From contig JAVYMA010000015.1 of assembly GCA_038740345.1 (NCBI GenBank), positions 1-47,784 on the forward strand: DNA of 47,784 nt. The letters are read 5' to 3'. Positions 18,676 through 22,900 of the stretch are shown here, one piece after another (position 1 is the first letter of the stretch; each line of letters starts with the position of its first letter). Both the position numbers and the translations under genes were made by a program. Below the pieces are notes generated by a model. The model did not search any database. It had not been told where the DNA came from and saw only the letters and a program-made list of their open reading frames with translations. This stretch comes from Methanomassiliicoccales archaeon. GTDB taxonomy: Archaea; Thermoplasmatota; Thermoplasmata; Methanomassiliicoccales; UBA472.

Positions 18676-18800
18676 GCTTTGCTACGCATCCACTACCACA
18701 AGGCATCATGGCCAGGATACGGTCTGGGGTAGGGATAGCAACTATCACATTAATGCCCATGCGAACTAGAACTCCATATCTGGCTAGTTTCTGTGAGGCA

Positions 18801-18809
18801 TTATATATA
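18801..18809 (+). promoter_or_regulatory. TATA box of the TIM-barrel/SIS operon
   Basis: TTATATATA lies about 45 nt upstream of the ATG at 18850, predicting a transcript start near 18830 and a short leader with the ribosome site AGGTGA at 18840-18845. This spacing rules out the upstream in-frame GTG at 18793, which lies before the TATA box. Confidence 0.6.
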
Positions 18810-18849
18810 CAAGTACCTGATTACTAGGGATTACCGCTCAGGTGACTTG

Positions 18850-20073
18850 ATGATTCGCTTCGGGCCAGCTGGCATTCCTCTTTCTTGCAAGGGTCGGACG
18901 TTGAAGGATGGGATCGAGGACGTTCACAACCTCGGACTCAATGCTATGGAGGTACAAATGGTCCGCGTCAATGTGATGGAAAGAGTTCCAGACGAGGAGG
19001 AAGTGGGCCTTACACCTCTCCAAATCGAAGGCGATCTCGTAGTGGAGATCCTTCGTCGGAAAGGAAAGAAGGATATGGTCATAACTGATCTAAATGAGGA
19101 GATCAGGGAGGATGATACTCTAGTCACATTGGCTTCGGGTTTGGTGCAGAACTTCCAAGAGCTTCGTGAACTCGGCATCATGGGGCAAGAGTTGGACGTC
19201 GAGCTCTCCATGCATACTCCATATTACATGGACCTTGTTTCCAACAGCGATTTGACCAAGAAGAGCATGGACTCCATAAGATGGGCAGGAATGATGACGG
19301 ACCAGATGAATGGCGTGCTGGTGGCGACTCACATAGGTTTGTATGGAAAACTATCCCAAAAAGCTGCGAACCAAAATGTAAGGGACAACTTGGAGAAGAT
19401 CATCAATTGGTGGGATGAGAACAAGATCAAACCTAGGTTAGGAGTGGAGATATCTGGTCGCCAGGAGGTCTGGGGTTCCTTGGAAGAAGTTTTAGAGCTA
19501 TGTGACGATATAAAAGGTCTGGTCCCGGTTATGAATTTCGCTCATTACCATGCGCGTGAGAATGGAATTTTAAGAGAGCCTAGCGACTTCGCTGAATTCT
19601 TCGATAGATGCAAGAGCTACGTAGGGTCTCAATATTACACGCATTTCTCAGGAGTTGAGCATGAGGCAGGGAATGAGAAAAGGATTACGCCCATCAAGAA
19701 AGGGGATCTTAGGTTCGAGCCATTGGCTGAATATCTGGTGGAGGCTAATCCTAATGTAACAATCATCTCCTCCTCACCTCTTCTTGAGCACGATGCCATG
19801 TATATGAAGGTAATCTATGAACGTGTGCTTACCAAGAAGGTGGCGAAGGAAGTAAAGGCAAAGCGCTCGGAGCAGCAAGAAGAGGAGAAAGGCGCCGAGC
19901 AAGAGGAACAGAAGCTCAAGAAGACGGAAAAGACTGAGAAAGGGAAGGCCGAGAAGAAACAACAATCCAAGGAGCCTGGCAGAGATAAAGAGAAAAAACC
20001 CACAAGTGCCAACTTAAAACCCTCCAAAAAGATTGCCAAGCAGGTCGAGATTGATTACGAAGAGGATGAGTGA
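18850..20073 (+). CDS. Xylose-isomerase/endonuclease IV-like TIM-barrel protein with charged tail
   Basis: 407 residues from the ATG at 18850, decided by AGGTGA 5 nt upstream. Residues about 1-330 resemble the AP endonuclease 2/endonuclease IV TIM barrel: MIRFGPAGIPLSCKGR at the start, ELSMHTPYYMDLVS, THIGLYGK, GVEISGR, VPVMNFAHYHAR and YTHFSGVEH supply His/Glu/Asp residues at the usual barrel-end metal positions. Nfo itself cleaves abasic DNA, but this subgroup in archaea is uncharacterised. Residues about 333-407 are an extreme Lys/Glu/Gln-rich, disordered-looking tail that could bind nucleic acid or a partner. The stop overlaps the start of the SIS gene by one base (TGATG), so the two are coupled. 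Confidence 0.75.
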   Translation: MIRFGPAGIPLSCKGRTLKDGIEDVHNLGLNAMEVQMVRVNVMERVPDEEEVGLTPLQIEGDLVVEILRRKGKKDMVITDLNEEIREDDTLVTLASGLVQNFQELRELGIMGQELDVELSMHTPYYMDLVSNSDLTKKSMDSIRWAGMMTDQMNGVLVATHIGLYGKLSQKAANQNVRDNLEKIINWWDENKIKPRLGVEISGRQEVWGSLEEVLELCDDIKGLVPVMNFAHYHARENGILREPSDFAEFFDRCKSYVGSQYYTHFSGVEHEAGNEKRITPIKKGDLRFEPLAEYLVEANPNVTIISSSPLLEHDAMYMKVIYERVLTKKVAKEVKAKRSEQQEEEKGAEQEEQKLKKTEKTEKGKAEKKQQSKEPGRDKEKKPTSANLKPSKKIAKQVEIDYEEDE

Positions 20074-20612
20074 TGAAGGAAGCCTCCAATTTTATAATCT
20101 CTGAGGTAAAGGAATCTTTAGAAAAGGTAGACCCAGCATTATCTGAGAAAGTGTGCGATGCTATATTAGGAGCGAGGGTAGTATTCATTTACGGAGTGGG
20201 AAGGTCAGGACTTGTCGGCAAAGCTTTTGGCGTGCGTCTTGTCCAAATGGGTCTGGATGTCCATTTCATAGGTGATACCACGACTCCCATAGTGCAGAAA
20301 GAGGATCTGTTATTGGTCATCTCGAATACAGGGGAGACGATGTCCGCCGTCCAGACAGCCAATATTGTAGGTAGGATTGGTGCAGAGGTCGTGGTAATAA
20401 CCTCCAATCAGCAATCAAAATTAGGGAGGACGGCGAGAATCATTGTCGAAATTCAGCCCTGCCGCAAGGAGGAGAGGTCCAAATTAGCTCCACTTGGCAC
20501 TATTTTCGAAGTGGCCAGCCTTATCTATTTGGATTCCTTAGTACCTTTGTTGATGCAGAAGCTGAATCAATCAGAGGCATCTTTGCGCAAGCGTCATGCC
20601 ATATGGGTCTAA
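20073..20612 (+). CDS. hxlB: SIS-domain protein, 6-phospho-3-hexuloisomerase-like
   Basis: 179 residues from the ATG at 20073, whose A is the last base of the preceding stop. A single sugar isomerase (SIS) domain: VFIYGVGRSGLVGKAFGVRL, then HFIGDTTTPIV, LLLVISNTGETMSAVQTA and VVVITSNQQSKLGR; the C-terminal PLGTIFEVASLIYLDSLV matches 6-phospho-3-hexuloisomerase (PHI) of the archaeal ribulose monophosphate pathway, which interconverts hexulose 6-phosphate and fructose 6-phosphate. The partner hexulose-6-phosphate synthase (HxlA) is not here. Its stop overlaps the stop of the converging JAMM protease gene. Confidence 0.85.
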   Translation: MKEASNFIISEVKESLEKVDPALSEKVCDAILGARVVFIYGVGRSGLVGKAFGVRLVQMGLDVHFIGDTTTPIVQKEDLLLVISNTGETMSAVQTANIVGRIGAEVVVITSNQQSKLGRTARIIVEIQPCRKEERSKLAPLGTIFEVASLIYLDSLVPLLMQKLNQSEASLRKRHAIWV

Positions 20613-21271
20613 TTGCCATCCTTTTTACCCTTGTCAACATCGGCTAATTTTTTCCTCCTCACAGTCTCGCCGAAATATGGATTTTGATATTCGTCCCAAT
20701 ATACAGCGAAGGGGCGTGAGCGAACTTTTCCATTTTCGATGAAAAAGGACTCGATCTCCTTATTTATAGGATCGATTACAATGGCGGAATGGAATCTCTT
20801 GTTGAACAATCCTTTCTGGGTCTCGACATCAGTGGGGGAAAGAAAACATCTATGACCTGGATGAGAGTGATACCAACCAACGATCACATACTTGAAGCCT
20901 GCCTCCTCGAGGTAGGCGAAAAGTCTTTCCATCCCATCCCGCGAGAATCTAACTCTAACTGAGGAGGAATCCAAATCGGTTGTGGCCACATCTCTTACAA
21001 TAGAATATTGTACATCATTCCATGTGAATACGTTACCTAGCAGGAGTCCCATCACTTCAAGCCTCTGCGAGGCCGCGGCTGAAGCATGATTGCGTATCTT
21101 CTCCTCCGCCAGTTTCGAGAGATACAATTCATATCTACCCGGACCTACCTTTGCATACTCCTCCCGCGCCTTCTCATTCAACCATTTATGAGCGGTGCAC
21201 CTCTCTGGCGGGGGCGGCTCTCGCTGCCTAAGGCAAGGCTCGATCGCTCTAAGGATTTGTGGTGGCGTCAT
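20609..21271 (-). CDS. Rpn11-like JAMM (MPN+) metalloprotease of a ubiquitin-like system
   Basis: 220 residues from the ATG at 21271, which overlaps the E2 stop (ATGA). The full JAMM zinc-protease motif is present: E72 in RLEVMGLLLG, H135 and H137 in VGWYHSHPGHRCFLSPTD, S145 and D148. The wording EVMGLxLG ... GWYHSHPG-x-x-C-x-LS-x-x-D-x-x-TQ is very close to the proteasomal deubiquitinase Rpn11/CSN5, not to bacterial RadC or ThiF-associated JAB proteins. About 50 residues with several prolines precede the MPN domain, and a Lys/Asp-rich tail follows it. Expected role: cleaving the isopeptide bond between the Gly-Gly modifier and target lysine. The modifier already ends in GG, so precursor maturation is not needed. 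Last gene of the operon. Confidence 0.92.
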   Translation of the reverse strand: MTPPQILRAIEPCLRQREPPPPERCTAHKWLNEKAREEYAKVGPGRYELYLSKLAEEKIRNHASAAASQRLEVMGLLLGNVFTWNDVQYSIVRDVATTDLDSSSVRVRFSRDGMERLFAYLEEAGFKYVIVGWYHSHPGHRCFLSPTDVETQKGLFNKRFHSAIVIDPINKEIESFFIENGKVRSRPFAVYWDEYQNPYFGETVRRKKLADVDKGKKDGN

Positions 21272-21777
21272 ACCTCCCTCACGACTTTTGGCAAAGGTAC
21301 TGAGATCAATGGCCCCCCAGTTTTTCGGGTTCGGTTGAAATATTCGGCTGCAAGGGTGCACGTTTCAGTTCCGAATGGGCTTGATGGATTGGGGTTGAGC
21401 AGAAGATACTCGATGCCCTTGATGAACATAAGCAAAGTAGAATTAAAACTCCACTCGTCAAGTAGTTTATTGCAAAGGAAGCCCCCATCTTCTGGCATCA
21501 TTATATTGGGATGAAAGATGGGAGTAAGCCAAGTGACCTGAGGCTTCTGGAAGGGGTAATCGGCTGTTATTGTCAGCGAAAAGCGATGATGATACCTTTT
21601 CCTGATTTGGCCATTAATAAGCTCATAACCTGGTATTTGCACTAAGAGCATCTCAATCTCCAAAGGGAATGTGGAGAAGGCGTTTTCTTCTATCTCAATG
21701 GGGTGTTTGAGACATCTCTGGCAAATAGCCAGCTCATTCTTCAGCCTGGATACGAGTACTTCGCGGGGTAAAGGCAT
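21268..21777 (-). CDS. E2-like ubiquitin-conjugating enzyme
   Basis: 169 residues with a recognisable UBC fold: N-terminal helix (EVLVSRLKNELAICQR), beta strands ending in FSLTITADYPFQKPQVTW, the HPN motif at residues 89-91 (FHPNI), catalytic Cys102 in GGFLCNKLLDEWS, the conserved Trp109, and the later PNP (129-131) followed by a C-terminal helix (AAEYFNRTRK). Eukaryotic E2s read HPN-I-x3-G-x-I-C-L-x-I-L-x3-W; here the HPN-to-Cys distance is 3 residues longer. All hallmarks needed to carry a modifier as a thioester are there. The gene starts 3 nt after the ubiquitin-like gene stop and ends in ATGA overlap with the JAMM gene, so the three are translationally coupled. Confidence 0.92.
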   Translation of the reverse strand: MPLPREVLVSRLKNELAICQRCLKHPIEIEENAFSTFPLEIEMLLVQIPGYELINGQIRKRYHHRFSLTITADYPFQKPQVTWLTPIFHPNIMMPEDGGFLCNKLLDEWSFNSTLLMFIKGIEYLLLNPNPSSPFGTETCTLAAEYFNRTRKTGGPLISVPLPKVVREV

Positions 21778-21780
21778 CCA

Positions 21781-22020
21781 TCAACCGCCTTCTGGGTCAG
21801 GGATGAGCTCCAAATCGTCTGAATTGCATATTCCAGCCTCAAGCACCGTTTGCTGTCCTCTAAGAAGCTTCTTACCCCTGCGTAATACGTAAGCGCCAGC
21901 GTCCTTTTCCCAATATCCTGCAGCTCCTTCTATTATCTCCTGGATAGTATTTTCCTCCTCCAGCTCCATATCAACGGTGCTGCCCGTCTCAGCATTTCTT
22001 ACTCTGACTCGTACGGACAT
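21781..22020 (-). CDS. Ubiquitin-like modifier ending in Gly-Gly
   Basis: 79 residues with predicted beta-grasp pattern: strand 1 (SVRVRVRNAET), turn, strand 2 (STVDMELEEEN), the main helix (TIQEIIEGAAGYWEK), strand AYVLRRGKKLL, then TVLEAGICNSDDLELIP and the C-terminal tail DPEGG with the stop codon directly after GG (78-79). The LRRGKKLL ... TVLEAGI order parallels ubiquitin's strand 3 and following loop. Because no residues follow the diglycine, it can be activated by E1 without proteolysis. Internal lysines for chain formation are few: K39, K50 and K51. Located between E1 (94 nt away) and E2 (3 nt). No clear ribosome site is seen ahead of the ATG. Confidence 0.92.
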   Translation of the reverse strand: MSVRVRVRNAETGSTVDMELEEENTIQEIIEGAAGYWEKDAGAYVLRRGKKLLRGQQTVLEAGICNSDDLELIPDPEGG

Positions 22021-22114
22021 TCAGTATCACGATGGATTCGAGCGTCGAGCCTTTCAAAAAACCTTCGCATCACAGTTAATTCTCTTGATAATCTCGAGTC
22101 CTCGCCTTGCAGAA

Positions 22115-22900
22115 TTAATTATGGAGTTGGCATTGAGGATCAAGCTCCACCTCCACTTCTATGCAGGCATTCGTCAGGCCGTTGTATAAGAACATATGAC
22201 GAAGGCAGGAGTCCGCTTTTCCGCTGATTATCTTGAGAGCCTCTCGGACCTGAATGGCAGCTATGATGCTGGTGGTAGTTATTTCAGCTGCCAACTTTGG
22301 CTCGAAATAGTTCGTATCCGCACCAGTGCAGCTGTAGCGTCTTTCGAGCACACGATAATGGCTGCGATTCATAGAGCACTGAAGGCAAGGATCTGATGGT
22401 GGCAGAGCAACCTGGACCTTGCCTGAGGTCCCTAGAGTCCCCCCATCGACCAGAGGTCTAGAATAGTGATAGCAAAAAGCATTGACATGCAGGCGTGCTG
22501 CGATGTTATCCAGGCACCCTAAGACCAAATCGATTTCCTGGAACAGCCTCTCAGGAATTTCCTCTATTCTTGAGACTATCCCTTTCACTCTTGCTTCAGA
22601 ATCTAATTGCCCAGCCTTTTCGGCTAGGACCAATGCTTTTGGCTTCCCCAATAGGGCATCTTTTTCATCGAAGAAAAGACATCTGTTGAGATTGGAGCGC
22701 ACCACCTTATCCATGTCCACCACGGTTATATGGCGCACACCCGCAAGCAACAGATTTTTCAACACCTCATTCCCTAAGGCGCCAGCTCCGACTACTAGAA
22801 TCCTACTTCCCATTACCTTATCCAAATCGATCCAGCCAACTCGCCGAGTACGGTCGTGCCTATCCTCATTTAATATATTTGGTGTGATTACGTAACTCAT
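22115..22900 (-). CDS. E1-like ubiquitin-activating enzyme
   Basis: 261 residues, a minimal adenylating E1 of the ThiF/UBA fold. Visible: DRHDRTRR near the N-terminus (the D-R-Q-x-R position of E1s), ATP loop GAGALGNEVLKNLLLAGV (38-55), VVDMDKVVRSNLNR (60-73) with the Asp and Arg that hold ATP, K86, LGCLDNIAARLHVN (127-140) with the Mg-binding Asp131, and a C-T motif, SCTGADTNYFEP, putting Cys191 as candidate thioester residue. A CLQC pair (172-175) recalls the zinc site, but the second CxxC pair is not obvious. The wording is closest to eukaryotic Uba2/Uba3, yet there is no separate Cys-domain insert and no ubiquitin-fold domain. First gene of the operon; probably leaderless. Confidence 0.93.
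   Translation of the reverse strand: MSYVITPNILNEDRHDRTRRVGWIDLDKVMGSRILVVGAGALGNEVLKNLLLAGVRHITVVDMDKVVRSNLNRCLFFDEKDALLGKPKALVLAEKAGQLDSEARVKGIVSRIEEIPERLFQEIDLVLGCLDNIAARLHVNAFCYHYSRPLVDGGTLGTSGKVQVALPPSDPCLQCSMNRSHYRVLERRYSCTGADTNYFEPKLAAEITTTSIIAAIQVREALKIISGKADSCLRHMFLYNGLTNACIEVEVELDPQCQLHN

Follow-up and report, generated by a model that had tools for sequence, protein, structure and literature searches.

Ubiquitin-like conjugation systems that combine ubiquitin (Ub), an activating enzyme (E1), a conjugating enzyme (E2), a RING protein and an Rpn11-type protease are known from Caldiarchaeum and from Asgard archaea, as the relevant sections of two papers describe (PMC5654768, PMC6043591). 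In those sections, the operon of Candidatus Caldiarchaeum subterraneum holds Ub, E1, E2, a small RING and an Rpn11-like JAMM protease. Here we describe an operon of this kind from a genome of the order Methanomassiliicoccales (phylum Thermoplasmatota). It lies on the minus strand at 20609-22900 of contig C15 (47,784 bases), in a genome of 1.79 Mb, and encodes an E1-like enzyme, a ubiquitin-like modifier, an E2 and a JAMM protease, in that order. We call this whole contig the window.

Other published work comes close to this locus. An archaeal group of proteases, JAMM-3, is encoded in operons alongside Ub, E1 and E2 (Fuchs et al. 2018, PMC6043591, the relevant section of which names no organisms), and an Rpn11 orthologue, WP_019177758, is reported from Methanomassiliicoccus luminyensis in the accessible text of Fort et al. 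2015 (PMC4453063). That group and that orthologue probably include the JAMM protease described here or its relatives. For Methanomassiliicoccales, the accessible parts of these two papers mention neither a modifier, an E2 or a RING partner nor a distribution. A survey of 2015 included Euryarchaeota on the strength of a single marine group II genome, which had a UCH peptidase and RING proteins (PMC4327156). Bacteria have the Bil and type-6 E1/E2/JAB operons (PMC1779556; PADLOC E1-E2, JAB). Archaeal Ub/E1/E2/JAMM operons are thus already known in kind, as is the M. luminyensis Rpn11 homologue. Our literature searches on Methanomassiliicoccales, Methanomassiliicoccus, Thermoplasmatota or Thermoplasmata with ubiquitin, which covered few subscription journals and no supplements, returned no account of this pathway, nor of its spread across the order, its RING partner or the pattern of co-loss described below.

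We think it quite likely that the Methanomassiliicoccales have a minimal, mainly vertically inherited ubiquitin-like modification pathway with a RING ligase (E3) encoded away from the operon. This reading comes from the four protein families, their invariant catalytic residues, the conserved operon, and a RING partner with its co-distribution, all of them obtained from sequence.

The operon and its four proteins

The features of the operon in the window are as follows.

22115..22900, minus strand: E1-like activating enzyme, 261 amino acids (Pfam ThiF 1.6e-54), with a GxGxxG loop, candidate Cys191 and a CxxC/CxxH zinc site
22328..22330, minus strand: codon of the candidate E1 catalytic Cys191, an invariant column
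21781..22020, minus strand: ubiquitin-like modifier, 79 amino acids, beta-grasp, with a mature Gly-Gly end (PDPEGG), from the predicted fold and profile matches to ubiquitin
21784..21789, minus strand: codons of the C-terminal Gly78-Gly79 (PDP[EQ]GG in 87/88 orthologues)
21268..21777, minus strand: E2 (UBC) conjugating enzyme, 169 amino acids (Pfam UQ_con 3.6e-13), with an HPN motif and catalytic Cys102
21472..21474, minus strand: codon of the E2 catalytic Cys102, an invariant column
20609..21271, minus strand: Rpn11-like JAMM protease, about 220 amino acids from the ATG (Pfam JAB 1.8e-14)
20828..20869, minus strand: JAMM zinc motif HSHPGHRCFLSPTD, found in 79/80 well-matching orthologues, which also conserve the upstream Glu

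The earlier note on this DNA had described four minus-strand genes with intact catalytic residues, and the Pfam matches to ThiF, UQ_con and JAB bear this out. It was also right about the 3 nucleotides between modifier and E2; the gap between E1 and modifier is 94. The overlap of 4 nucleotides that it gave for E2 and JAMM depends on where the protease starts. Very probably the start is the ATG at 21271, which gives those 4 nucleotides with the E2 stop, but the longer open reading frame (ORF) from a GTG at 21361 would make the overlap 94. The operon is not a chance arrangement, because the same gene order recurs across Methanomassiliicoccales.

In an alignment of 21 E1 orthologues, the nucleotide loop, Cys191, C172/C175 and C257/H260 are invariant. 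By sequence, the protein belongs to the ThiF adenylation fold family and has a conserved Cys at the candidate thioester site. Against the Protein Data Bank (PDB), the E1 profile matched the ubiquitin E1 Uba1 best (1.4e-41, versus 4.3e-30 for MoeB). HPN and Cys102 are invariant among the aligned E2s, whose profile matched eukaryotic E2s best, and the predicted E2 structure has a confident core with a UBC fold, with moderate matches to UBC structures (query template modelling (TM) score 0.55-0.65). The HxH, Ser and Asp ligands of the JAMM protease are invariant in the aligned set and the Glu is nearly so; its profile found yeast Rpn11 first (6e-27) and also the Caldiarchaeum Rpn11 homologue (5e-22). 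A JAMM extension of 60-70 N-terminal residues (window about 21100-21271), which reads PP...R...HKWL, is conserved in families f1-f5 and mostly missing in f6.

The modifier has the highest mean pairwise identity of the four (58%, with E1 at 55%, E2 at 48% and JAMM at 42%). Its family profile matched ubiquitin in the PDB; the very low E-values in that search stem from polyubiquitin chains, and single ubiquitin chains scored about 0.002-0.02. An AlphaFold model gave a beta-grasp with a mean predicted local distance difference test score of 89.8, and Foldseek aligned it to SUMO, ubiquitin, ISG15 and the Caldiarchaeum ubiquitin 6fno at a query TM of 0.81-0.88. The single exception to the PDP[EQ]GG ending is a truncated reading frame. 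After the GG, orthologues carry 0 to 10 further residues. Such variable tails behind a fixed GG are expected from precursor processing by a JAMM protease, as in Caldiarchaeum (PMC5654768). We also considered a YukD/ESX secretion modifier and rejected it (19.3 of 27 bits for the Pfam YukD cut-off; NCBIfam 14.6 of 100).

The best PDB matches, Uba1, eukaryotic E2s, Rpn11 and ubiquitin, give good support to a eukaryote-like conjugation pathway. The earlier note had proposed a functional, eukaryote-like pathway. The likeness held up in the families and the PDB profile matches; the operon is not the whole pathway, because the candidate RING E3 is elsewhere, and conjugation itself is inferred.

The ThiF family also includes MoeB and UbaA, so we asked how well a sulfur carrier of the ThiS/MoaD/SAMP/Urm1 type, activated by a MoeB/UbaA-like enzyme, would account for the first two genes. 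We find this highly improbable and reject a plain sulfur carrier. The NCBIfam sulfur-carrier models all stay far under their cut-offs (UbaA 80.7 of 450, MoeB 85.5 of 376.55), the window modifier has no match to the ThiS model, and the genome has its own separate ThiF and ThiS-family genes elsewhere. One of these, a second ThiF/MoeB-like protein at L001 (G000:C35:4220-4918), has no Cys at the E1 catalytic position in our reading and is probably an ordinary sulfur-carrier adenylyltransferase. A UBC-type E2 with an invariant Cys in the operon also argues against sulfur transfer, as does the loss of the modifier's GG where the E2 is lost, described in the next section.

Inheritance across the order and natural losses

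We found the E2 in 97 of 147 Methanomassiliicoccales genomes, which cover 28 of 30 genera. A sample of 390 genomes of the phylum Thermoplasmatota gave it in 79; some of the genomes sampled are incomplete assemblies. In a scan of named genomes with the E2, the best 80 loci all fell under Thermoplasmatota or euryarchaeal names. The earlier note had judged that the genome otherwise looks euryarchaeal, which fits its placement in Methanomassiliicoccales and Thermoplasmatota, and that such a system is not usual there. This second judgement has to be reversed, as the system is the rule in Methanomassiliicoccales and also occurs in other Thermoplasmatota.

Among the loci fetched from the order, the arrangement E1-modifier-E2-JAMM holds nearly without exception. 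In more distant genomes, the modifier, E2 and JAMM stay together and the E1 is sometimes a few genes off or outside the fetched stretch. A tree of E1, E2 and modifier recovered families f3, f5 and f6 as monophyletic; f1 was not one clade, with weak support (0.335). In the window, the operon is followed at 18793-20612 by a SIS-domain gene and a TIM-barrel gene (AP_endonuc_2 match), and the same two genes, judged from their sequences, follow the operon in the distant Thermoplasmatota loci L141, L150 and L152. Because the tree mostly follows the families and these downstream neighbours are common to distant loci, the comparison points to mainly vertical inheritance of the operon in Methanomassiliicoccales. 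A lone acquisition in the window genome was rejected, given that the operon is order-wide and f3, f5 and f6 are monophyletic.

The same pattern bears on a role in defence, in which the operon would be an archaeal relative of the bacterial Bil or type-6 E1-E2-JAB operons. These have parts in common with ours, and PADLOC gave weak E1-E2 and JAB matches, but the matches are partial and low-scoring. Inheritance that is order-wide and mostly follows families is unlike the patchiness usual for defence islands, the downstream neighbours are common to distant Thermoplasmatota, and the JAMM and E2 are nearer to Rpn11 and eukaryotic UBC proteins. We regard a defence system as very unlikely.

Some genomes depart from the usual gene content. 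Two distinct E2 genes at separate loci occur in each of G151, G162, G186 and G219. Ubiquitin-like and E2 domains are fused in single ORFs in G147 (L224:2672-3358), where the linker retains PKGG and the JAMM and E1 follow, and in G458 (L223:2908-3594), where the E2 reads GGDIHCEYL around the catalytic Cys.

A modifier-profile search of the order found diverged modifiers in genomes that have no E2. Of these, 26 were sampled in which the modifier had lost its C-terminal Gly-Gly, all but one of the sample. The remaining genome, G050, kept the GG; there the modifier sits at the edge of its contig next to a normal E1, and the E2 has probably only dropped out of the assembly, so that the GG is gone in 26 of 26 genomes that lost the E2 and keep a modifier. 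The diverged modifiers without GG (L210-L216, L245-L263) belong to genomes of genus g25, part of g22 and G010, and may have a non-conjugating role. In G042 (L263) we see a degenerating operon: the modifier has no GG, there is no E2, and what is left of the neighbouring E1 and JAMM has lost its motifs, the zinc motif of the JAMM among them.

There are also loci where the JAMM gene is retained as a pseudo-protease. At L069, L071, L072 and L080-L084, its HxH...SxxD motif is destroyed; the E2 is still there, as are the modifier and E1 at the loci that have them, and these modifiers stop right at the GG. Genus g22 and G067 have a JAMM without zinc ligands, and their modifiers likewise leave nothing to trim after the GG. 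Absent tails alongside a dead JAMM amount to few independent events and are suggestive only.

A candidate RING E3 beside the proteasome alpha gene

The operon in the window neither contains nor adjoins a RING gene. In the rest of the window genome there is one weak RING match, a protein of 257 amino acids at contig C8:31721-32491, with a RING-like domain, zinc ribbons and, in our reading, an N-terminal hydrophobic segment. Its gene neighbours ftsZ, the proteasome alpha gene and exosome genes. When the RING part of 21 orthologues was aligned, the zinc ligands were kept (one is Ser in f5), as were C-x-I-C and C-P-x-C (C-P-Y-C). In known RINGs, the C-x-I-C and C-P-x-C positions contact E2s. The C8 protein family has the eight zinc ligands in RING spacing, the C-x-I/L-C and the C-P-x-C that mark RING E3s. 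The RING profile matched the E3s RNF165/Arkadia best in the PDB (3e-7), and Pfam zf-RING_2 matched all 21 members at E up to 0.1, with most single sequences just under the cut-offs.

Across the 147 genomes, RING and E2 were both found in 91 and both absent in 48; the eight discordant genomes have the E2 only (six) or the RING only (two), and this count omits a partial 23-bit RING match in G083. Losses of RING and E2 are scattered, affecting g25 and g15 and parts of the genera g22, g13 and g20 separately. In the five families sampled, the RING gene stands directly before an optional ftsZ, a short ORF that we take to be Pop5-like (it has no Pfam match), the proteasome alpha gene psmA, SBDS and exosome genes. 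The RING is absent from this place in the E2-less genomes G010, G013, G016, G034, G073 and G076, which retain the Pop5-like and psmA neighbours, and it is present at the psmA locus in the E2-positive G009, G027 and G037. Beyond Methanomassiliicoccales, RING and E2 still go together: of 333 genomes, a number derived from listings, 31 have both, 11 the E2 only, 20 the RING only and 271 neither. From the sequence evidence, the C8 protein is likely the missing E3 of the pathway. The earlier note had called the four-gene operon complete, which we would no longer say with the candidate E3 lying beside the proteasome alpha gene.

It could be that the operon conjugates without any RING E3, and that the RING protein co-varies with it through another process tied to the proteasome, exosome or FtsZ. 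Conjugation of SAMPs in Haloferax needs no E2 or E3 (PMC11354881), and the RING protein here has extra zinc ribbons and an apparent membrane segment, with a gene that lies apart from the operon in the window genome. However, in E2-less genomes it is the RING alone that is lost from a retained locus. The RING gene is also about 8 kb from the operon in G111, and in other Thermoplasmatota a RING adjoins the modifier-E2-JAMM genes: in G151 it is the C-terminus of a giant ORF that ends just upstream of them (L218, G151:C3), and RING matches adjoin the E2 in G162 (C3), G179 (C403) and G185 (C207). We therefore consider conjugation without the RING unlikely and prefer the detached RING E3.

In some distant relatives there is a gene between E1 and modifier, which we rejected as an E3 when no RING was seen in it. 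Some Thermoplasmatota have very long ORFs (about 1,900 to more than 3,000 codons) with a RING beside modifier-E2-JAMM, and some appear to have many RING proteins, with 12 RING matches in G186.

The proposed pathway and its relatives

In the pathway we propose, the E1 would adenylate the Gly-Gly end of the modifier and then take the modifier on Cys191, from which the UBC-type E2 would receive it on Cys102. The RING protein on contig C8 would act as the E3 and promote transfer to targets. The Rpn11-like JAMM would trim the short tails that follow the GG in some orthologues and remove the modifier from targets. We infer the transfer through thioesters, the isopeptide conjugation, the part of the RING protein as E3 and any route through PAN and the 20S proteasome. 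The pathway would be Caldiarchaeum-like and perhaps feeds the proteasome: the window genome carries genes for 20S subunits and for a PAN-type ATPase domain, and a role in degradation is possible, with gene neighbourhood as its sole link. We hold only tentatively to the fuller version, a minimal ubiquitin-proteasome pathway with a membrane-anchored RING E3, modification by E1 and E2, deconjugation by the JAMM and degradation by PAN-20S. If true, it would give the euryarchaea a counterpart of the eukaryotic ubiquitin-proteasome system, one that is testable in cultured methanogens.

Several observations count against the pathway with a detached RING E3. As a single sequence, the modifier matches Pfam YukD (0.002) and ubiquitin (0.048) below both cut-offs. 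The window E2 carries WSF at a place where many eukaryotic E2s carry WSP. In the window genome, the RING gene and the operon are unlinked, and the Fisher value for RING and E2 co-occurrence (2e-29) ignores phylogeny. Outside the order, several Thermoplasmatota have RING matches without an E2 or the reverse. Genus g22 keeps E1, E2, GG and RING with a JAMM that has no zinc ligands, so the protease is dispensable there. The case as a whole is built on sequence comparison and predicted folds.

Among archaea, biochemical work has demonstrated ubiquitylation for Caldiarchaeum, which is uncultured, and there are reports of it from Asgard genomes. The same parts are now seen in a methanogen order that has cultured species, inherited across nearly every genus, and the natural losses show which parts of the pathway depend on one another. 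The place of the RING partner next to the proteasome alpha gene hints at where a link to degradation might be sought. All of this bears on the time and place of origin of the pathway that eukaryotes use.

The earlier note had likened the operon to the Caldiarchaeum and Asgard clusters and to bacterial Bil-type operons. For Caldiarchaeum, the match of the four core families upholds this; the Bil part fell away on the partial, low-scoring PADLOC matches. Bil and type-6 operons have the same functional parts list, but they match weakly and in part, and ours has a single-domain modifier, a separate small E1 and no E1-JAB fusion. The haloarchaeal SAMP/UbaA/desampylase system also has a GG-ended beta-grasp modifier, an E1 and a JAMM, but the UbaA and desampylase models are far under cut-off here and SAMPs use no E2. 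Asgard systems have the Ub, E1, E2, RING and Rpn11-like parts, a comparison by parts list alone with the relevant sections of PMC5654768 and PMC6043591.

The likeness is closest to Caldiarchaeum. By its sequences, the locus has what marks that type of system: a ubiquitin-fold modifier with GG, a ThiF E1 with a conserved Cys, a UBC E2 with HPN and Cys, and an Rpn11-like JAMM. The two have these four core families in common, including the Rpn11-like JAMM and the ubiquitin fold (6fno is among the Foldseek matches), and in many Methanomassiliicoccales relatives the modifier has a GG followed by a short removable tail. They differ in that the Methanomassiliicoccales RING is beside the proteasome alpha gene and has an N-terminal hydrophobic segment and zinc ribbons. 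In addition, the JAMM here is co-directional at the end of the operon, the modifier ends in PDPEGG, and the hosts are euryarchaeal methanogens with cultured members.

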